Made by a program: the position numbers and the translations under genes. From Agromyces atrinae (GTDB lineage: Bacteria > Actinomycetota > Actinomycetes > Actinomycetales > Microbacteriaceae): a DNA stretch of 64,000 nucleotides. This document shows positions 25,353 through 53,853 of the stretch, in pieces. Within the stretch, counting starts at the first letter, position 1, and each line of letters starts with the position of its first letter. The DNA lies in the NCBI RefSeq assembly GCF_013407835.1, contig NZ_JACCBI010000001.1, positions 2,666,001 to 2,730,000 of the forward strand, written 5' to 3'. Below the pieces are notes generated by a model that was given only the letters and a program-made list of their open reading frames with translations, was not told the DNA's origin and made no database searches.

Positions 25353-25408
25353 TTGACACCATTCCGTCGGCGCGGGAAACTTGATTCGTCAGGACTCAAG
25401 TCTTGACA
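25353..25408 (+). promoter_or_regulatory. dnaK: dnaK promoter region with HAIR element 2
   Basis: TTGACA occurs at 25353-25358 and again at 25403-25408. Between them cttgatt (25380-25386), seven bases and actcaag (25394-25400) form a HAIR site with one mismatch to consensus. HspR bound here would cover the promoter. The -10 elements are weak and not assigned with certainty. Confidence 0.75.
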
Positions 25409-25475: not shown

Positions 25476-27335
25476 ATGTCCCGTGCAGTAGGAATCGACC
25501 TCGGAACCACCAACTCGGTGGTCAGCGTTCTCGAGGGTGGCGAGCCCACCGTCATCGCGAACGCCGAAGGCTTCCGCACGACCCCGTCGGTCGTCGCCTT
25601 CACCAAGGACGGCGAGGTGCTCGTCGGCGAGACCGCCAAGCGCCAGGCCGTGACCAACGTCGACCGCACGATCTCGAGCGTCAAGCGCCACATCGGCACC
25701 GACTGGACGCAGGAGATCGACGGCAAGAAGTACACGCCGCAGGAGATCTCGGCACGCATCCTCGGCAAGCTCAAGCGCGACGCCGAGCAGTACCTCGGCG
25801 ACACCGTCACCGACGCCGTCATCACCGTTCCCGCGTACTTCAACGACGCCGAGCGCCAGGCCACGAAGGAAGCCGGCGAGATCGCGGGCCTCAACGTGCT
25901 GCGCATCATCAACGAGCCGACTGCCGCCGCTCTCGCGTACGGCCTCGACAAGGGCAAGGAAGACGAGCTCATCCTCGTCTTCGACCTCGGTGGTGGAACG
26001 TTCGACGTCTCGCTCCTCGAAGTGGGCAAGGACGACGACTTCTCGACCATCCAGGTGCGCGCCACCTCGGGTGACAACCGCCTCGGTGGTGACGACTGGG
26101 ACGCCCGTGTCGTCGAGTGGCTCACCAAGCGCTTCAAGGAGTCGACGGGTGTCGACGTCTCGAAGGACAAGATCGCTCAGCAGCGCCTCAAGGAGGCCGC
26201 GGAGCAGGCGAAGAAGGAGCTCTCGAGCTCGACCTCGACGTCGATCCAGCTGCCCTACCTCTCGCTCACCGAGAACGGCCCCGCCAACCTCGACGAGACG
26301 CTCACGCGCGCCCAGTTCGAGAACATGACGAGCGACCTGCTCGACCGCACGAAGAAGCCCTTCGACGACGTCATGCGTGAGGCCGGCGTGAAGATCGCCG
26401 ATGTCGCACACGTCGTGCTCGTCGGTGGATCGACCCGTATGCCCGCCGTGGGCGAGCTCATCAAGCGCGAGACCGGTCAGGAGCCGAACAAGGGCGTCAA
26501 CCCCGATGAGGTCGTCGCCGTCGGCGCCGCACTCCAGGCCGGCGTGCTGCGCGGCGAGCGCAAGGACGTCCTCCTCATCGACGTCACCCCGCTGTCGCTC
26601 GGTATCGAGACCAAGGGCGGCATCATGACGAAGCTCATCGAGCGCAACACCGCCATCCCCACGAAGCGCAGCGAGACCTTCACGACCGCCGACGACAACC
26701 AGCCGTCGGTCGCCATCCAGGTCTTCCAGGGCGAGCGCGAGTTCACCCGCGACAACAAGCCGCTCGGCACCTTCGAGCTCACCGGAATCGCCCCGGCCCC
26801 TCGTGGCATCCCGCAGGTCGAGGTGACCTTCGACATCGACGCCAACGGCATCGTGCACGTGTCCGCGAAGGACAAGGGCACCGGCAAGGAGCAGTCGATG
26901 ACGATCACCGGCGGCTCGTCGCTTCCGAAGGAAGACATCGAGCGCATGGTGCGCGAGGCCGAGGAGAACGCCGCCGAAGACAAGAAGCGTCGCGAGTCGG
27001 CCGAGGTGCGCAACTCCGCCGAGCAGCTCGTCTACTCGATCGAGAAGCTCATCAAGGACAACGACGAGAAGCTCCCCGCTGACGTCAAGTCCGAGGTTCA
27101 GGGCGACGTCGACGCGCTCAAGTCGGCCCTCGCGGGTGACGACGACGAGGCCGTGAAGACCGCGTTCGAGAAGCTCTCGCAGTCGCAGGGCAAGCTCGGC
27201 GAGGCCATCTACGCCCAGGGCCAGGCGGCCGACGCCGCGGCCGGTGAAGACCAGGCGCCCACGGGCGAGCAGGCCTCCACCGACGAGGACGTCGTCGACG
27301 CCGAGGTCATCGACGAGGACGACGAGAAGAAGTAG
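25476..27335 (+). CDS. dnaK: Chaperone DnaK (Hsp70)
   Basis: A 619-aa Hsp70. The start [17 protein letters not shown] is the ATPase signature; [17 protein letters not shown] and [12 protein letters not shown] are the other two Hsp70 signatures. The substrate domain begins near [13 protein letters not shown] and the acidic tail ends DEDDEKK. The ATG at 25476 has AAGGAGAG upstream. It is the first gene of the dnaK-grpE-dnaJ-hspR operon. Two HAIR-like sites upstream indicate HspR repression, released on heat stress when DnaK is occupied. Confidence 0.98.
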
Positions 27336-27337
27336 TC

Positions 27338-27928
27338 ATGACTGACGAGAACCAGAAGCCGGATGACGCCGACGAGGTGACGCCCGAGGCCGAGTCGACC
27401 GACTCGCCCCAGGCCGATGCCCCCGAGGAGGCCATCGACGCCGAGGTCATCGATGTCGACGACGAACTCACGGTCGACGACATCCTGAACGCGGCGAACG
27501 CCGAGATCGACGATCCGTCGAGCGAGCACCTCGCCGACCTCAAGCGGGTGACCGCCGAGTACGCGAACTACCGCAAGCGCACCGAGGCCAACCGCGAGGT
27601 CGAGCGCGAGCGCGCGATCGGCTCAGCCGTCGCCGTGCTCCTGCCGGTGCTCGACGACCTCGACCGTGCTGAGAAGCACGGCGACCTCGTCGCCGAGACG
27701 CCCTTCGCGGCCATCGCGGCCAAGCTCCGCGGCTCGATCGCGAAGCTCGGCCTCGAGCCGTTCGGTGCCGTGGGCGAAGCCTTCGATCCGCAGCGACACG
27801 AGGCGATCTTCCAGCAGCCCTCGCCCGACGTCGAGGTCGACACCGTCGCTGACGTCGTCGAGACGGGGTACACGCTCGGATCGACCCAGCTGCGCGCGGC
27901 GAAGGTCGTCGTCCAGACACCCGCGTAA
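27338..27928 (+). CDS. grpE: Nucleotide exchange factor GrpE
   Basis: A 196-aa protein. An acidic N-terminal segment (1-60) and coiled-coil helix (RVTAEYANYRKRTEANREVE) precede the GrpE beta domain with LEPFGAVGEAFDPQRHEAIF and ETGYTLGSTQLRAAKVVV. It releases ADP from DnaK. It starts 2 bases after the dnaK stop. Confidence 0.97.
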   Translation: MTDENQKPDDADEVTPEAESTDSPQADAPEEAIDAEVIDVDDELTVDDILNAANAEIDDPSSEHLADLKRVTAEYANYRKRTEANREVERERAIGSAVAVLLPVLDDLDRAEKHGDLVAETPFAAIAAKLRGSIAKLGLEPFGAVGEAFDPQRHEAIFQQPSPDVEVDTVADVVETGYTLGSTQLRAAKVVVQTPA

Positions 27929-27938
27929 CGCGCACGAT

Positions 27939-27968
27939 GCGGGCCGGATCCTCGAGGGTCCGGCCCGC
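27939..27968 (+). terminator. Hairpin between grpE and dnaJ
   Basis: gcgggccgga (27939-27948) pairs with tccggcccgc (27959-27968), and the loop contains the palindrome cctcgagg. No T-tract follows, so it may act as a partial terminator or RNA stabiliser that sets dnaJ and hspR expression below dnaK. Confidence 0.55.
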
Positions 27969-28013
27969 GTCATCCCCATTCACTTTTCGATGCACCACAG
28001 GAGGGAGGCGTCC

Positions 28014-29006
28014 ATGGCCAGCCAGGATTGGTTCGACAAGGACTTCTACAAGGTCCTCGGCGTCTCCAAGGACGTCTCCGAGGCCGAGCTCAAGAAGACG
28101 TACCGCAAGCTCGCCCGTAAGTACCACCCCGACTCGAACCCCGGCGATGCGGCGTCCGAGGCGAAGTTCAAGGAGATCAGCGAGGCCCACTCGGTGCTCT
28201 CCGACCCCGAGCAGCGCAAGGAGTACGACCAGATCCGCGCGATGGGTTCGGGCGCTCGCTTCACCGCCCCCGGCGGCGGGCAGGGCACCGGCGGCTTCGA
28301 GGACGTCTTCGGCGGCATGTTCGGTGGCGGCGGTGCCGGCCAGCGCACGAGCTACCAGCAGGGCGGCGCCGACTACGACGACCTGCTCGGCGGGCTCTTC
28401 GGCGGCGGGCGCTTCGGTCAGACGACCGGCGGCTTCCGCGGCTACGGCGGGCCGACCCGCGGCCGCGACGTGACCGCCTCGACGACCCTCGACTTCATCA
28501 CGGCGACGCAGGGCGACCAGATCACCCTGCAGACCTCCGAGGGCAAGCCGATCACGGTGCGCATCCCCGCGGGCGTCTCCGACGGGCAGAAGATCAAGTT
28601 GCGCGGCAAGGGCCAGCCTTCGCCCGACGGCGGCGAGCCCGGCGACATCGTGCTCACTGTCTCGGTGCGGAAGCACCCCGTCTTCGAGCGCGATGGCCTG
28701 AACCTGCGCGTCACCGTTCCCGTGACCTTCGCCGAAGCCGCGCTCGGCGCCACGATCGAGGTTCCGACCCTCGGCGGCGCACCGGTCAAACTCCGTGTCG
28801 CCCCCGGCACACCGAGCGGCCGCGTGCTGCGCGTCAAGGGTCGCGGCGTCACGACGTCGAAGGGCACGGGCGACCTCCTCGCCGTCGTGCAGATCGCCGT
28901 TCCCGCCCACCTCTCGAAGGATGCCCAGGAAGCGCTGGAGGCATTCGCCGCGAAGCTGCCCGACGAGAACCCGCGCAGTGAGCTGCTGCGCGCCGCACGC
29001 GACTGA
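28014..29006 (+). CDS. dnaJ: DnaJ co-chaperone, zinc-finger-less type
   Basis: A 330-aa J-protein. The J domain (1-75) has HPD in ARKYHPDSN. A Gly/Phe-rich segment (about 85-145) follows, then the C-terminal substrate domains (ITVRIPAGVSDGQKIKLRGKG, VFERDGLNLRVTVPVTFAEAALG). There are no CxxCxGxG repeats, so it is the CbpA-like class, common in the actinobacterial hspR operon. The ATG at 28014 follows GGAGGGAGG. It stimulates the DnaK ATPase and delivers substrates. Confidence 0.95.
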   Translation: MASQDWFDKDFYKVLGVSKDVSEAELKKTYRKLARKYHPDSNPGDAASEAKFKEISEAHSVLSDPEQRKEYDQIRAMGSGARFTAPGGGQGTGGFEDVFGGMFGGGGAGQRTSYQQGGADYDDLLGGLFGGGRFGQTTGGFRGYGGPTRGRDVTASTTLDFITATQGDQITLQTSEGKPITVRIPAGVSDGQKIKLRGKGQPSPDGGEPGDIVLTVSVRKHPVFERDGLNLRVTVPVTFAEAALGATIEVPTLGGAPVKLRVAPGTPSGRVLRVKGRGVTTSKGTGDLLAVVQIAVPAHLSKDAQEALEAFAAKLPDENPRSELLRAARD

Positions 29007-29014
29007 GGCGACCC

Positions 29015-29431
29015 ATGGACGAGAAGAGCCCGATCTTCGTGATCTCCGTCGCCGCCGAGCTCGCGGGCATGCACCCGCAGACCCTGCGGCAGTACGACCG
29101 CCTCGGCCTCGTCTCGCCCGACCGCACGGCGGGCAAGTCGCGCCGCTATTCGATGCGCGACGTCGTGCAGCTGCGCGAGATCGCCGTGCTGTCGGCCGAG
29201 GGCGTGAGCCTCGAGGGCATCCGCCGCGTACTGCAGCTCGAGAACCGCGTGACGACGCTCGAAGCGCGCGTGCGCGAACTCGAGGGCGCGCTCGCCGACG
29301 AGATGCTCAACCGCCCGGGCCGCCGCGTCTTCGCCGCGGGCTCCGAGGGCGAGGTCATCTCGCTCCGCTCGGGCACGCGCGTGCGCCGCGAGACGGCCGT
29401 CGTCGTCTGGCGTCCCCTCGACAGCGAGTGA
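29015..29431 (+). CDS. hspR: Heat-shock repressor HspR
   Basis: A 138-aa MerR-family regulator. The HTH reads AELAGMHPQTLRQYDRLGLVSP, followed by RRYSMRDVVQLREI and a coiled coil (RVTTLEARVRELEGALADEM). HspR binds HAIR sites and represses dnaK, clpB and its own operon, with DnaK as co-repressor in Streptomyces. HAIR sites are visible at dnaK and clpB in this window. It starts 8 bases after dnaJ. Confidence 0.96.
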   Translation: MDEKSPIFVISVAAELAGMHPQTLRQYDRLGLVSPDRTAGKSRRYSMRDVVQLREIAVLSAEGVSLEGIRRVLQLENRVTTLEARVRELEGALADEMLNRPGRRVFAAGSEGEVISLRSGTRVRRETAVVVWRPLDSE

Positions 29432-45455: not shown

Positions 45456-48260
45456 TCAGGCCTGCTCGGCGATCGCGCGGGCCTCGGCGGCCTCGTCGAG
45501 GCGACCGAGCGACTCGAGTGCATCGCCGAGCTCGAGGGCGGCGACGCCGCGCAACTCGGGAATCGCCTCCTCGCGCTCGAGCGCCGCACGGTAGATCGGC
45601 ACGGCGTCGGCGACGCGATCGGACTGCGCGAGCATGCGGGCCGCCGTGAGCTCGGCGCCCGCCGCACTCGCCGGGTCGCCCGCCTGCGCGTACCGGTCGG
45701 CCGCGGTGAGCGCGACCGGGATCGCCTCGTCGACGCGGCCGAGCGAACTGAGTGCGCGCGCACGCGAGTCGGTCACGTCGGCGATGAGCCAGTGCGCCTC
45801 GTGCTCGGCGGCGATCCGCTCGATCTCGTCGAACGTCTCGAGCGCGGCCTCCTGCCCCGCACTCGCCTGCGCGATGCCGTAGCCGTGCAGCACGTCGGTG
45901 AGGAGTCCTGCGTCCTCGGGCGTCTCACGCGCGGCGGTGGCCGCGGCCGAGAGCGATTCGAGCGCGTCATCCGTCTCGCCGAAGCGGCCGAGCAGTCGCC
46001 CCTGCATCGCGCCGGCGCGCGCCGCCCCGCGTGAATCACCGCCCTCGGTGAAGAGCTCGACCGCAGCGCCCCAGGCGCCGACGGCGTTGCCGTACTGCTC
46101 ATCGGCGTGCAGCGCCTGACCGAGCCACAGCAGCGTCTCGCCGCGCGACGCGGCCTCGATGCCGGCCTCGGTCTCCTGCTCGTAGACGTCCTGCAGCACC
46201 TCGATCGACTCGGCCGCGTGACCCGCGCCGAGCAGCGAGCGGCCGAATGCGAAACCGAGACCGGTCGCCGGCTGGTCGAGCAGCTCCGACTGGCGCACCG
46301 CGAAACGGAAGCGGTTGACGGCCTCGTCGGGCTCGCCGGCATCGGTCCAGAGGGCAGCGGCGAGGGCCGTCGCGTCGACGACGGCGGGGCGGATGTCGAG
46401 TTCGGTGAAGATGCGCGTCGCCGAATCGGCCGCGCGAGCGCCCGACGCGAAGTCGCCCGAGCCGCCGAGGATGCGGGCACGCGTGAGCAGCGAGAGGCCG
46501 CGCTCGCCGTCGCCCGGCTCGAGCGCATCGAGCTGGTCGAGGGTCGCGAGTGCGGCCTCGATGTCGTCGTCGGCGACCTCGCAGCGCGCGAGGAAGTGCA
46601 GGGAGGCGCGCACGCCACGCGGCGACTCGCCCGCGAAGAACCCGTCGGCCGCGGCCCCGGCGAGACGCTTGGCTCCGTCGGGCTCGCCCGTCGAGACGAG
46701 GAGCATGGCGAGGCTCAGACGGATGTCGGCGACGACGTCGGGCGGAGTCTCGGGTGCGATGTTCGCCAGTTCGTGTTCGAGCGCGGCACGGTCACTCGGC
46801 TCGGTGCGGCCAAAGACGGCGAGGCCGACGCGCTCCTCGAGTGCCGCCTGGTGCTCGCGCCCGTTGTCGCGGAGTGACGCGATGCGGGCGGGCAGAGCCG
46901 CTTCGGCGGCCTCCAGGTCGCCCGAGTTCACGAGGTACCCGATCGTGAGCGAGTGCATCTCGTCGCGGTCGCGGCCCGTCGCACCCTCGAGTGCACGGCG
47001 AGCGGCCTCGATCGCGGGCACACCGAGGCCCGCCATGGCGAGGTCGCGGGCGCGATCGGTCCAGCCCGCGGCATCCGTCGGTTCGGGGCGCGAGACGGGG
47101 GCGGGAAGGAAGGTGTCGGTGTTGATCGGCACGTCGTAGGTCGTCTCGGCGAGCGCCTTCGCGGCCGAGATGCGCCCGGCGAAGTAGTCGTTGCCGTTGC
47201 GGGCGTCGAACGCGTCAGCGAGCCGTGCGGCGGCTGCCCACGCGGCGACGCCGAGATCGGCGGCCGTCCACGTGCCGTCGTGTTCGCCGAAGAAGGCGAC
47301 GAGGCCCGGAGCGTCGGCGCCGCGAACGACGGCATCGCCGTGGCCCGCCCGCTCGACAGCATCGAGCAGGACGCCGATCGCGACGAGCGCCGAGAAGTGG
47401 CCTGCGGCGTTCAGTCCGTCGTGGGCGAGCCACCCGATGTGGCGCTCGAGCAGGGCCAGTCCGCGGGCCTCGTTGCCCGTGACGGCGCAGAAGACGAGGT
47501 GGTTCGCGACGATGTCGAGCTTGTCGGGGTTGTCGCGCGCGAGTCGGTAGCTGCGCACGTGCGCCTGCTTGGCATCGGCATCGCGGCCCGCGCGCAGGTA
47601 CGGCAGCATCGCGCGCGAGAGGGCGTGCTCGGGCTCGTCGCCGCAGCTGAAGTCGCCCTCGATCATCTCCTCGACGAGGGTGATCGCCTCGGCGTCGCGG
47701 TTCGTCTCGATGAAGAAGCCGCTCGACTGGCTGCGCACGCACGCGTCGCAGTGGCTGTACTCGTCGCGCGGCATTCCGGCGAGTTCGACGCGCCACTTCT
47801 CGGCCTCGTCGATGCGGCCGTTGACCCACGCGTCCTCGAAGCGCGACATGATCACGCCGCTCTGGCTCACGCCGGCGCGCGAGTAGTGCTCGTGCATGTC
47901 GTGGAGCACGGCATCGATCTGCTCGCGCGAGAAGATCGGCGACGCGCCGAGGGTGCCCGCCATCCACTTGTACTGCCACAGCAGGTCGGCGCCGCCGTTG
48001 CCGATGTCGAGGGGGAACCGCTCGGGATCGGAGTCGTGCTTCGCGAGGCACCACGCGAACGACGCGAGCATCGCATCGGTGTCGCCCGATTGGTTTGCCG
48101 AGCCCGTGAGGCGCATGCGCGCGCGGTACTCGAGCTTCTCGTCGCCCGCCTCGACCGCGAGGGCGATGGCCTCGTCGACGAGGGCGCGCTCGGCAGGGCC
48201 GAACGGCGTCTGGTCGATCTCCTCGAAGAGCTCTTTGATGCGGCGGGTCGTCTTGCTCAT
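45456..48260 (-). CDS. Large TPR-like protein coupled to the HSP90 gene
   Basis: The product is 934 aa, soluble, with no signal peptide. It is mostly pairs of Ala-rich helices in a TPR-like pattern: for example DAALESLSAAATAARETPEDAG-type units, ADAVPIYRAALEREEAIPEL and ALELGDALESLGRLDEAAEA. The N-terminal ~200 residues are different and include a CxxC pair in HCDAC. The ATG at 48260 overlaps the HSP90 stop by ATGA, so the two proteins are made together. A partner role with HSP90 is inference; no eukaryotic-type clamp partner motif is present. Confidence 0.78.
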   Translation of the reverse strand: MSKTTRRIKELFEEIDQTPFGPAERALVDEAIALAVEAGDEKLEYRARMRLTGSANQSGDTDAMLASFAWCLAKHDSDPERFPLDIGNGGADLLWQYKWMAGTLGASPIFSREQIDAVLHDMHEHYSRAGVSQSGVIMSRFEDAWVNGRIDEAEKWRVELAGMPRDEYSHCDACVRSQSSGFFIETNRDAEAITLVEEMIEGDFSCGDEPEHALSRAMLPYLRAGRDADAKQAHVRSYRLARDNPDKLDIVANHLVFCAVTGNEARGLALLERHIGWLAHDGLNAAGHFSALVAIGVLLDAVERAGHGDAVVRGADAPGLVAFFGEHDGTWTAADLGVAAWAAAARLADAFDARNGNDYFAGRISAAKALAETTYDVPINTDTFLPAPVSRPEPTDAAGWTDRARDLAMAGLGVPAIEAARRALEGATGRDRDEMHSLTIGYLVNSGDLEAAEAALPARIASLRDNGREHQAALEERVGLAVFGRTEPSDRAALEHELANIAPETPPDVVADIRLSLAMLLVSTGEPDGAKRLAGAAADGFFAGESPRGVRASLHFLARCEVADDDIEAALATLDQLDALEPGDGERGLSLLTRARILGGSGDFASGARAADSATRIFTELDIRPAVVDATALAAALWTDAGEPDEAVNRFRFAVRQSELLDQPATGLGFAFGRSLLGAGHAAESIEVLQDVYEQETEAGIEAASRGETLLWLGQALHADEQYGNAVGAWGAAVELFTEGGDSRGAARAGAMQGRLLGRFGETDDALESLSAAATAARETPEDAGLLTDVLHGYGIAQASAGQEAALETFDEIERIAAEHEAHWLIADVTDSRARALSSLGRVDEAIPVALTAADRYAQAGDPASAAGAELTAARMLAQSDRVADAVPIYRAALEREEAIPELRGVAALELGDALESLGRLDEAAEARAIAEQA

Positions 48261-50101
48261 GCTGGCCTGTCTGTATCGGGGGACGGCGCGGGCTCGGTGA
48301 GGCCCACGCTCAGTTGGATGAGATCGCCGAGCGCCGTCGTCATGAGGGCGCGGTCGGCGACGGCGAGGGGGCGGTGCCCGGCGAGGAGCGCCTGCACATA
48401 GAGGAGGTGAACGGAACGCGCGAACACGGCGTCGTCGTCGACGGCCGCGAGCTGGCGCACGACGGGCGTGTTCCAGTTGAGGCAGAGGCGTGCGACGGCG
48501 TCGGGTCGGTTCTCGGCCGCGCGCGACGCGTTCACGAAGTCGTCGACCTGGCTGAGCACGCCGCCCCACAGGCCGCTGCTCGCGCCGCGCGCCCGCGAGC
48601 GGTCGATGCGACGGAACACGGCGTCGTCGGCGACGTAGAGCGCAGGCAGGTCGTGCGGCTCGTACCCGCGGACGACGGCGCGGCACTCGACGGACGCGAG
48701 GGCGAGCGTCGCGCGGTCTTCGAGCCGGACGGCGGCGTCGCGTTCGGCGAGGGGAGGCTCGGCGAGGCGGTCGAGTTCGTCGGCGACATCCACGCGCTGC
48801 GCGGTGACGCCCTCGAACAGGGTGGGGAGGAGGCGGGCGATCTCGCTGTCGTAGACGTAGCCGCCGTTGACGATCGGTCGGTCCGAGCGGGCGAAGCTCG
48901 CGAGCTGCCGGAACTCGTCGACCGTCTCGGCGTAGCGCACTTCGGGGAAGCGGCGCACGAGAGTGTCGATCGTCATGCGTCCCGCGCTCGTCTCGACCGA
49001 GAGCCACTTCGTGATGAACCGCGCGAGCTCGTCGTCGTGCAGGACGAGCGCCTTGAGGGCGATGTCGTGCGTCGCGACGAACTGCGAGAGCAGGTGCGGG
49101 GCCTGCAGGCCGAGCTCCATGACCCAGCGGCGGAGCGTCGCTCCGATCTCGGCGCGCGTGTACTCGAGCGATTCGTCGTCGACGAGCGACTCACGGCTCG
49201 CGGTGGGGCTGAGGCCCGTCGAGTCGATCACGGTGCGCACGAAGAACGCCCACTCGGGCAGCACGTCGTCGATGCGCTCACCGAGGAGCATGCGCCCGAG
49301 ATAGACGCGGCTCGCCTGCCGTGCACCGGGCGGGGGAGAGAAGGGCAGCACATACGCGTATCCGCGCGTCCCCGTCGCCGGCACATCGATCTCGATCGCG
49401 TCGAACGGCTCGGCGCCGAGCAGGTCGCGACCGTACGCGAGCGTGTCGTCGGGCGATCCGCCGAGGAACGGGGCGTCGCGCGTGATGACCTCGACCCCGC
49501 CGCCCGGCAGGTCGACGCGCACGGGAACGGGCAGGAACTCGCCGAACGTCGTCGCGAGCGACAGCACCGAGGCGGTCGTCAGCAGATCGGACTGGTCGAA
49601 CCGGGGCGTCAGGTGCACGCTCGTGCCGATCGGTAGCTCGTCGGTCACCTCGCGCACGCTGAACGTGCCGTCGCCGAGGCCGACCCACTCGACCGCGGCG
49701 CCTCCGCGCGCGCTCCGCGAACGGATGACGATGCGGTCGGCGACCATGAAGCAGCTGAGCAGGCCGATGCCGAACTGACCGAGGTAGTCGCTGCGCGGCA
49801 GGTCGAAGATGTCGCGCTTCGACGAGCGGCCGACCGTCGACAGCAGTTCGGTCATCTCGCTCGCGGTGAGGCCGATGCCGTCATCCCGCAGCACGAACTC
49901 GCCGTCACCCGCGTCGAGCGGGGTGATCCGGATGCCGCGGGCGGAGTCTCCCCCGTCGAACTCGGCGCGTGCCGTGAGGGCGTCGCGACCGTTCTGCAGG
50001 AGTTCGCGCAGGAACACGCGAGGGCTCGAGTAGATGTGTCGGCTCAGCAGATCGACGACGCCGCGCAGGTCGACCTGGAACGGCAGGAGCTCGGAGCTCA
50101 C
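48257..50101 (-). CDS. HSP90-family ATPase (HtpG-related)
   Basis: A 614-aa protein. The ATPase (GHKL) domain has [13 protein letters not shown] (Glu33, Asn37), RDDGIGLT (73-79) and [17 protein letters not shown] (108-124). The middle domain has [20 protein letters not shown] and the catalytic Arg303 in [11 protein letters not shown]. The C-terminal ~200 residues diverge from HtpG and end without MEEVD. The GTG at 50101 overlaps the nitroreductase stop by GTGA. It is a second, divergent HSP90-like gene rather than canonical HtpG. Clients are unknown; the TPR gene follows by ATGA overlap. Confidence 0.88.
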
Positions 50102-50535
50102 TCGAACGGAGTCAGGAGGAACAGGGGAATGAGACGGTCGGTCTTCTTCTGGTAGTTCGCGTAGTCGGGCCAGACGGCGACCGCGCGCTCCAGCCACAGG
50201 GCGCGCTCCTCGCCCTCGAGCTCACGGGCGTGGTAGTCGCGCTTGACCGCGCCGTCCTGCAGCTCGACGTGCGGGTTCTTCGTGATGTTGGGGTACCACG
50301 CGGGGTTCTCGGGGGCGCCGCCCTTGGAAGCGACGACCACGTACTGGCCCTCGTGCTCGACACGCATGAGAGCGGTCTTGCGCAGCTTGCCGGTCGCGGC
50401 GCCGACGCTCGTCAGCACGATGATCGGCACACCGCGCATGGTGTTGGCCTCTTGACCGTTCGTCGCCTCGAACGTTTCAGCCTGCTCACGAGCCCATTCG
50501 GATGTGCTCGGTGCGTACTCGCCTTCCAGTGGCAT
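50098..50535 (-). CDS. Deazaflavin (F420)-dependent nitroreductase family protein
   Basis: A 145-aa protein of the Ddn/FDOR group: [50 protein letters not shown]. These use F420 to reduce nitro compounds, quinones or related substrates. The ATG at 50535 has GGGAAGGGAG upstream and is preferred to an in-frame start at 50565. It begins the operon with the HSP90-like and TPR genes. Confidence 0.88.
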
Positions 50536-51659: not shown

Positions 51660-51686
51660 AAAGTTGAGTTACATAGACTCAACTTT
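51660..51686. promoter_or_regulatory. clpB: Perfect HAIR element upstream of clpB
   Basis: aaagttgagt (51660-51669) and actcaacttt (51677-51686) are perfect 10-bp arms around seven bases. The core is the HspR operator pattern TTGAGT-N7-ACTCAA. It ends 13 bases before the clpB ATG. HspR from this window should repress clpB here. Confidence 0.85.
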
Positions 51687-51699
51687 GAAAGGAACCCCC

Positions 51700-53853
<2,154 letters not shown>

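Follow-up and report, generated by a model that had tools for sequence, protein, structure and literature searches.

An HSP90-family protein and its gene-linked partner in Agromyces atrinae and related bacteria: a candidate dedicated HSP90 machine

Introduction

The analyzed stretch of the Agromyces atrinae genome (64,000 nucleotides, positions 2,666,001 to 2,730,000 of contig NZ_JACCBI010000001.1; hereafter, the window) contains a gene for an HSP90-family protein that overlaps the gene for a large protein resembling tetratricopeptide repeat (TPR) proteins, which raises the question of whether the two products work together. A preliminary description of the locus had proposed that these proteins, together with the product of an adjoining redox gene, could form a dedicated chaperone system, by analogy with the TPR co-chaperones of eukaryotic HSP90. 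In most descriptions, bacterial HSP90 acts together with DnaK and has no dedicated TPR co-chaperones. We put at about 0.55 the probability that the products of the two genes form a dedicated HSP90 machine, in which an HSP90 of the NF010683 clade would be served by a partner with a docking module marked by three conserved cysteines (Cys3 module) and a client-presenting TPR tail. On the evidence of gene order, the near-constant presence of the partner gene beside this little-studied form of HSP90 in close relatives suggests that some bacteria possess a purpose-made HSP90 helper protein.

Results and Discussion

Linkage of the HSP90 and partner genes in Actinomycetota

Direct reading of the sequence confirmed the earlier account of three minus-strand genes (positions 50535-45456) joined by GTGA and ATGA overlaps (Table 1). 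Among genome contigs, 114 stretches were found to encode HSP90 relatives, the best 80 of which are referred to as the named loci (L and G numbers are our own identifiers of loci and genomes). In all 80 named loci, the partner is the next downstream gene on the same strand, as found by gene calling in 77 loci and by tblastn in L023, L063, and L078; frame breaks were observed in the HSP90 gene of L063 and in the partner gene of L042.

In the order survey, 35 of 198 genomes carry 36 NF010683 genes over the cut-off, and at all 36 the profile of the N-terminal partner module matches at most 2.5 kb away on the same strand. The module starts no more than 1.2 kb downstream of the HSP90 in 31 cases; among the remaining five, the spacing is longer in G065, G107, G121, and G135, with a repeat gene between the two in G065, and the order is reversed in G147, where the partner lies upstream of the HSP90 and still overlaps it by 4 bases. 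Doubled modules stand beside the HSP90 in G055, G065, G107, G121, G133, G135, and G177. The phylum survey gave the same result for 12 of 12 NF010683 genes, found in 10 of 296 genomes; the two samples are not additive, as two genes belong to both and some genomes repeat named loci. For none of the 36 HtpG-type genes from the same surveys does the module lie on the same strand at a distance of up to 2.5 kb, a control that leaves out G478 and G261 (match split) and G064 (partial), genomes with no module match. A partner search with a single sequence missed G132, G146, and G147, which were recovered by gene context and the profile.

Because adjacency holds in 80 of 80 named relatives and at all over-cut-off genes of two surveys, the HSP90/TPR arrangement is not due to chance. 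The gene-neighborhood survey that the preliminary description had suggested as a check found the two genes kept together in the named loci, in both surveys, and in the Bacillota records presented below. The spacing is tight as well: overlaps of exactly 4 bases were observed in 35 of 78 pairs (window included) compared to 97 of 512 other same-strand neighbors, and a gap of 0 or an overlap in 47 of 78 pairs compared to 124 of 512. Distances in the HSP90 and partner trees correlate with r 0.88 over 86 pairs, the largest value among 500 permutations being 0.12; the trees, which were compared only with each other, leave out L063, L042, L038, L014, L079, and HSP90s of at most 560 amino acids. Arthrobacter is nearest to Agromyces in both trees, and the nearest neighbors of Prescottella outside the genus differ between them.

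A 1426-amino-acid frame in Nonomuraea dietziae (L063:8007-12287) was considered as an HSP90-TPR fusion and rejected, since tblastn shows a frame break in the C-terminal part of the HSP90. The break mimics a fusion and reflects either a sequencing error or a truly broken gene.

Occurrence beyond the phylum

A tblastn search of 72,556 plasmid-collection records returned seven in which the match spans 80% or more of the HSP90, namely three from Streptomyces, two from Listeria, and one each from Paenibacillus and Pseudanabaena. The module was likewise found in 7 of the 72,556 records: the six non-cyanobacterial ones with a full-length HSP90, where the two genes lie side by side, and one from Actinomyces oris. 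The HSP90 of Paenibacillus cellulosilyticus overlaps by 4 bases a 353-amino-acid protein that corresponds to the N-terminal module alone, and in one Listeria record two proteins of 324 and about 320 amino acids, each consisting of the module only, come after the HSP90. In Streptomyces globosus, the partner has 1033 amino acids; adjacency in the other two Streptomyces records and the second Listeria record was derived from tblastn coordinates.

The Pseudanabaena plasmid (L216:5213-13830) encodes an HSP90-like protein of 877 amino acids with an extra C-terminal domain, near TIR-domain, TPR, VWA, and AAA genes. This locus may represent a separate, conflict-type HSP90 system.

Family, residues, and tail of the HSP90 protein

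By NCBIfam score, the window protein is a member of NF010683 (PRK14083, "HSP90 family protein"), with 679.5 bits at a cut-off of 455 and residues 7-600 aligned to positions 7-597 of the 604-position model. It barely exceeds the cut-off of the Pfam HSP90 family (PF00183; 24.8 compared to 24.4 bits) and lies under that of canonical HtpG (NF003555; 148.8 compared to 371 bits). PF00183 and NF010683 each have a single match genome-wide, and the protein is the sole HSP90 found in the genome.

Across 79 aligned proteins (window included), the GHKL residues E33, N37, D73, G75, G77, G108, G111, and G113 are invariant outside gaps, and the middle-domain R303 is present in all 79, which bears out the earlier claim that the ATPase residues and the middle-domain arginine are retained; the roles of these residues are presumed from those we take to correspond to them in yeast Hsp90. 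The window protein ends in ...DTDRPA, and an EEVD ending was found in none of the 79 tails of the family (L023 and L063 lie outside this set) and in none of 20 HtpG-type tails inspected, so that its absence is ordinary for bacterial HSP90. The hhalign comparison of the family with HtpG-type proteins runs end to end (581 columns, query 1-613, probability 100, E 2e-57, 24% identity), and the C-terminal domain has therefore not been lost. The lack of MEEVD noted in the preliminary description is normal in bacteria. The likeness to canonical HtpG extends to the full-length profile alignment and to the tail, whereas the sub-threshold NF003555 score and the module, which HtpG-type genes lack nearby, set the window protein apart.

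The partner protein and its Cys3 module

Pfam gave only TPR scores for the window partner, all under their cut-offs. Alignments of 34 and 10 diverse members define a module of residues 1 to approximately 385, and this N-terminal module is what the partners have in common. The TPR-rich C-terminal half varies in length or is absent, as in L185, L213, and the two Bacillota loci L215 and L218 (Paenibacillus and Listeria), and the Paenibacillus and Listeria partners of about 320-353 residues consist of the module alone or in tandem. Pfam and NCBIfam searches with 10 module members returned weak repeat matches and stray ones (best E 7.5e-06, TPR_8) and no family; the profile of the 34-member alignment matched mostly designed helical repeats in the PDB, with the best E of 1.1e-05 over approximately 50 positions. 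Two protein searches yielded 532 and 202 relatives, and those among the matches listed are mostly unnamed, hypothetical, or called TPR protein. The partner does not qualify as an ordinary TPR protein, since what is conserved in it is an unclassified N-terminal Cys3 module.

Conservation of the cysteines C171, C174, and C206 is almost complete: 341 of 342 full-length rows have all three, as do 54 of 55 representatives at 60% identity. The residues F351 (340/342), R354 (341/342), and P210 (340/342) are about as conserved. The sole full-length row that does not carry all three cysteines (L174 in G019) comes from a genome without an NF010683 match; 12 partial rows, among them the Cys-less L171 and L172, are left out of the 342. 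H234 is present in 293 of 342 rows and missing in the Paenibacillus and Listeria rows inspected; a row set labeled Bacillota was chosen partly by absent H234 and was not used as evidence on this residue. A structural metal, probably zinc, would most likely be bound by the three cysteines.

The partners encoded in L171:2758-4998 and L172:2764-4986 are divergent HSP90 partners that resemble a duplicated, CxxC-free module. Other module paralogues of approximately 1190 amino acids (L206:2229-5801 and L207:4982-8560) are encoded away from the HSP90, and their genomes have an HSP90-paired copy as well.

Proposed mechanism and alternative explanations

In the proposed mechanism, an NF010683-clade HSP90 would act as an ATP-driven dimer together with its gene-linked partner, the N-terminal Cys3 module of which (about 320-385 residues) would dock on the HSP90. 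In Actinomycetota, the module mostly carries a variable TPR solenoid, which would present clients; in the Paenibacillus and Listeria records, it occurs singly or in tandem. Docking by the N-terminal module appears to be the best explanation, because the linkage is complete for a single HSP90 clade, is not seen for HtpG, and involves the module that the partners share. Of the earlier proposal, a conserved, tightly coupled HSP90-TPR gene pair is borne out; the redox gene as a part of it and, on the HSP90 side, the EEVD-type analogy are not. A bolder version, which we hold only tentatively, is that the partners could be the first dedicated bacterial HSP90 co-chaperone family, characterized by an Actinomycetota/Bacillota Cys3 metal module, a non-EEVD interface, exchangeable TPR (in some cases YbjN) extensions for client choice, and a metal center able to gate the ATPase clamp. 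A gene-linked partner at every over-cut-off member of one HSP90 clade, as found in the two surveys, would open the origin of HSP90 co-chaperones and of client choice to direct tests in small bacterial systems and would assign a function to a protein set now mostly called hypothetical.

Several observations weigh against a dedicated machine. Matches to the module profile were obtained in 38 of 198 genomes in the order survey and 15 of 296 in the phylum survey, tallied as 57 of 64 matches (omitting seven second fragments of genes already counted) and 14 of 17 matches (omitting three weak ones), respectively. Of the 57, 19 lie more than 2.5 kb from an HSP90 or in genomes without one, and comprise five second copies in the same cluster, five large paralogues, four partial matches, two matches in G052, and one each in G019, G179, and G010. 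Genomes with the module and without an over-cut-off NF010683 gene are G019, G179, G010 (weak), G364, G397, and three further weak ones, and the Actinomyces oris plasmid has a module and no HSP90 annotated within 5 kb. The module can thus act otherwise than with an NF010683 HSP90, as G364, G397, and A. oris indicate. Conversely, no module adjoins the distant full-length HSP90 relative of Pseudanabaena, a fused form. The partners paired with the HSP90 in G146 and G147 match the module weakly (42-43 bits) and have no CxxC, and pairing thus does not require the metal site. The pair is accessory, being confined to the 35 and 10 genomes of the two surveys, and patchy, with three of five other genomes of the same genus devoid of the HSP90; among 14 named control genomes, two have an over-cut-off NF010683 match, and the linkage counts cover Actinomycetota and Bacillota records. 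HAIR-like (HspR operator-like) sites occur upstream of the HSP90 in only 5 of 79 named loci with a called HSP90, and correlated trees also arise from co-inheritance.

Rather than assisting the HSP90, the partner might be its obligate client, a long solenoid unable to fold without a dedicated HSP90 and therefore produced next to it. The position of the HSP90 upstream of the partner in nearly all pairs, the common 4-base overlaps, and the succession of one HSP90 and two module proteins in some genomes and in Listeria all agree with such a relationship. However, the Paenibacillus and Listeria partners are compact modules of 320-353 residues, the gene order is reversed in G147, modules exist without an NF010683 HSP90, and it is the N-terminal module and not the long solenoid that is conserved, which makes an obligate client unlikely. 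The Cys3 center could alternatively sense oxidation or metal loss and switch the HSP90 clamp on or off, somewhat like Hsp33, a redox-regulated chaperone. Consistent with a sensor, the three cysteines are, with R354, F351, and P210, the best conserved of the tallied positions, and the only Cys3-deviant full-length row originates from a genome without an NF010683 match; yet structural zinc gives the same pattern, the Cys-free partners of G146 and G147 are still paired, and the neighboring redox gene is not conserved. We consider sensing less probable still than the client relationship.

Finally, the HSP90 and its partner could be co-inherited in one operon and serve the same stress program without contact. 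The shared operon and the HspR-like site near the HSP90 in Salinibacterium would suffice for this, and correlated trees follow from a shared operon alone. The linkage is nevertheless complete in the surveys while other neighbors change by genus, it survives order reversal, and it is also present in Bacillota, and hence co-inheritance without contact seems to us the least probable of these alternatives, and a very improbable one. A dedicated HSP90 machine, in which the two proteins would bind each other physically, remains the reading we prefer.

Comparison with known chaperone systems

HSP90 of eukaryotes is served by TPR co-chaperones such as Hop/Sti1, FKBP51, and CHIP. The system described here resembles them in that a TPR-containing protein is paired with HSP90, in this case by gene linkage only, and differs from them in the missing EEVD tail and in an N-terminal module that combines weak TPR matches with conserved cysteines. 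The analogy to EEVD/TPR-clamp co-chaperones drawn in the preliminary description accordingly fails on the HSP90 side, with no such ending in 79 tails. The CHORD-domain co-chaperones are zinc-binding Hsp90 partners, and the Cys3 partner may resemble them as a cysteine-rich, zinc-type HSP90 partner. No title or abstract describing the HSP90-partner pair was found in the literature searched, which mostly excludes subscription journals. The abstract of one paper states that bacteria have no orthologue of the co-chaperone Hop (PMC7688965). Streptomyces coelicolor has two HTPG copies that belong to different groups, and the accessible part of the account of HTPG groups mentions no linked partner (Chen et al., 2006, PMC1525184).

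Neighboring genes and regulation

Table 1. Features of the HSP90 locus and of other chaperone genes in the window
Feature	Position	Strand	Basis
F420H2-dependent quinone reductase family gene, 145 aa	50098..50535	-	PF04075, 159.3 bits
GTGA overlap, quinone-reductase-like stop / HSP90 start	50098..50101	-	direct sequence reading
HSP90-family gene, 614 aa, GTG start, NF010683 (PRK14083) clade	48257..50101	-	NCBIfam score
ATGA overlap, HSP90 stop / partner start	48257..48260	-	direct sequence reading
Partner gene, 934 aa: N-terminal Cys3 module and TPR-like C-terminal half	45456..48260	-	
Conserved N-terminal module of partner, residues 1 to ~385	47106..48260	-	alignments
Codons C171, C174 (CxxC) to C206, probable metal site	47643..47750	-	row conservation
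H234 codon, possible fourth ligand in most Actinomycetota rows	47559-47561	-	
HAIR-like (HspR operator-like) site 5' of clpB	51663..51683	.	2 mismatches to consensus
ClpB/ClpA-like AAA+ chaperone gene	51700..53853	+	named by eye; context
dnaK-, grpE-, dnaJ-, hspR-like genes	25476-29431		named by eye; HAIR-like site at 25380

The redox gene that the preliminary description had included in the system stands beside the HSP90 in the window only. No F420H2 gene adjoins the HSP90 in the 80 named loci (called genes; L035 lacks upstream DNA) or in five additional HSP90 loci from this genus or family, of which L190 probably duplicates L036, and the F420H2 quinone reductase was rejected as a component and is regarded as an incidental upstream neighbor. 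Other neighbors of the HSP90 vary by genus and include genes of the HAD hydrolase, malate-dehydrogenase, macrodomain, and rhodanese types, SDR, and DUF2017. An anti-phage defense system is supported neither by the identified neighbors nor by PADLOC, where the ATPase region of the HSP90 alone matches (to TmtA and to a type II restriction enzyme; best 27.8 bits) and the partner has no match.

Of 103 loci with a called HSP90, 14 have a gene for a YbjN protein (PF10722) in its vicinity, in many cases directly upstream and overlapping it by 4 bases (as in Cellulosimicrobium and Oerskovia, among others); nine YbjN proteins in all were confirmed by Pfam. No YbjN gene was found close to the HSP90 in the window or at the remaining 89 loci. 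In L212:4532-6609 (G397), which has no over-cut-off NF010683 gene, a YbjN gene overlaps a gene for a Cys3 module fused to a second YbjN domain. This fusion links YbjN to the HSP90-partner system.

A heat-shock role of the pair may be considered. In four Salinibacterium loci, a divergent clpB gene, the product of which is 78% identical to the ClpB-like protein of the window, lies near the HSP90, and a HAIR-like site is located upstream of the HSP90. In three of these loci, the site has one mismatch to the consensus and stands between the two genes, 101 or 140 bases from the HSP90; in L014 it lies farther upstream. In L044, a 2-mismatch site lies 1550 bases upstream of the HSP90. No CIRCE operator was found in the window at up to 4 mismatches; its HAIR-like sites are upstream of clpB and dnaK and not of the HSP90 operon. 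The dnaK-grpE-dnaJ-hspR-like genes, the clpB-like gene, and the HSP90 pair are all contained within the same 64 kb.

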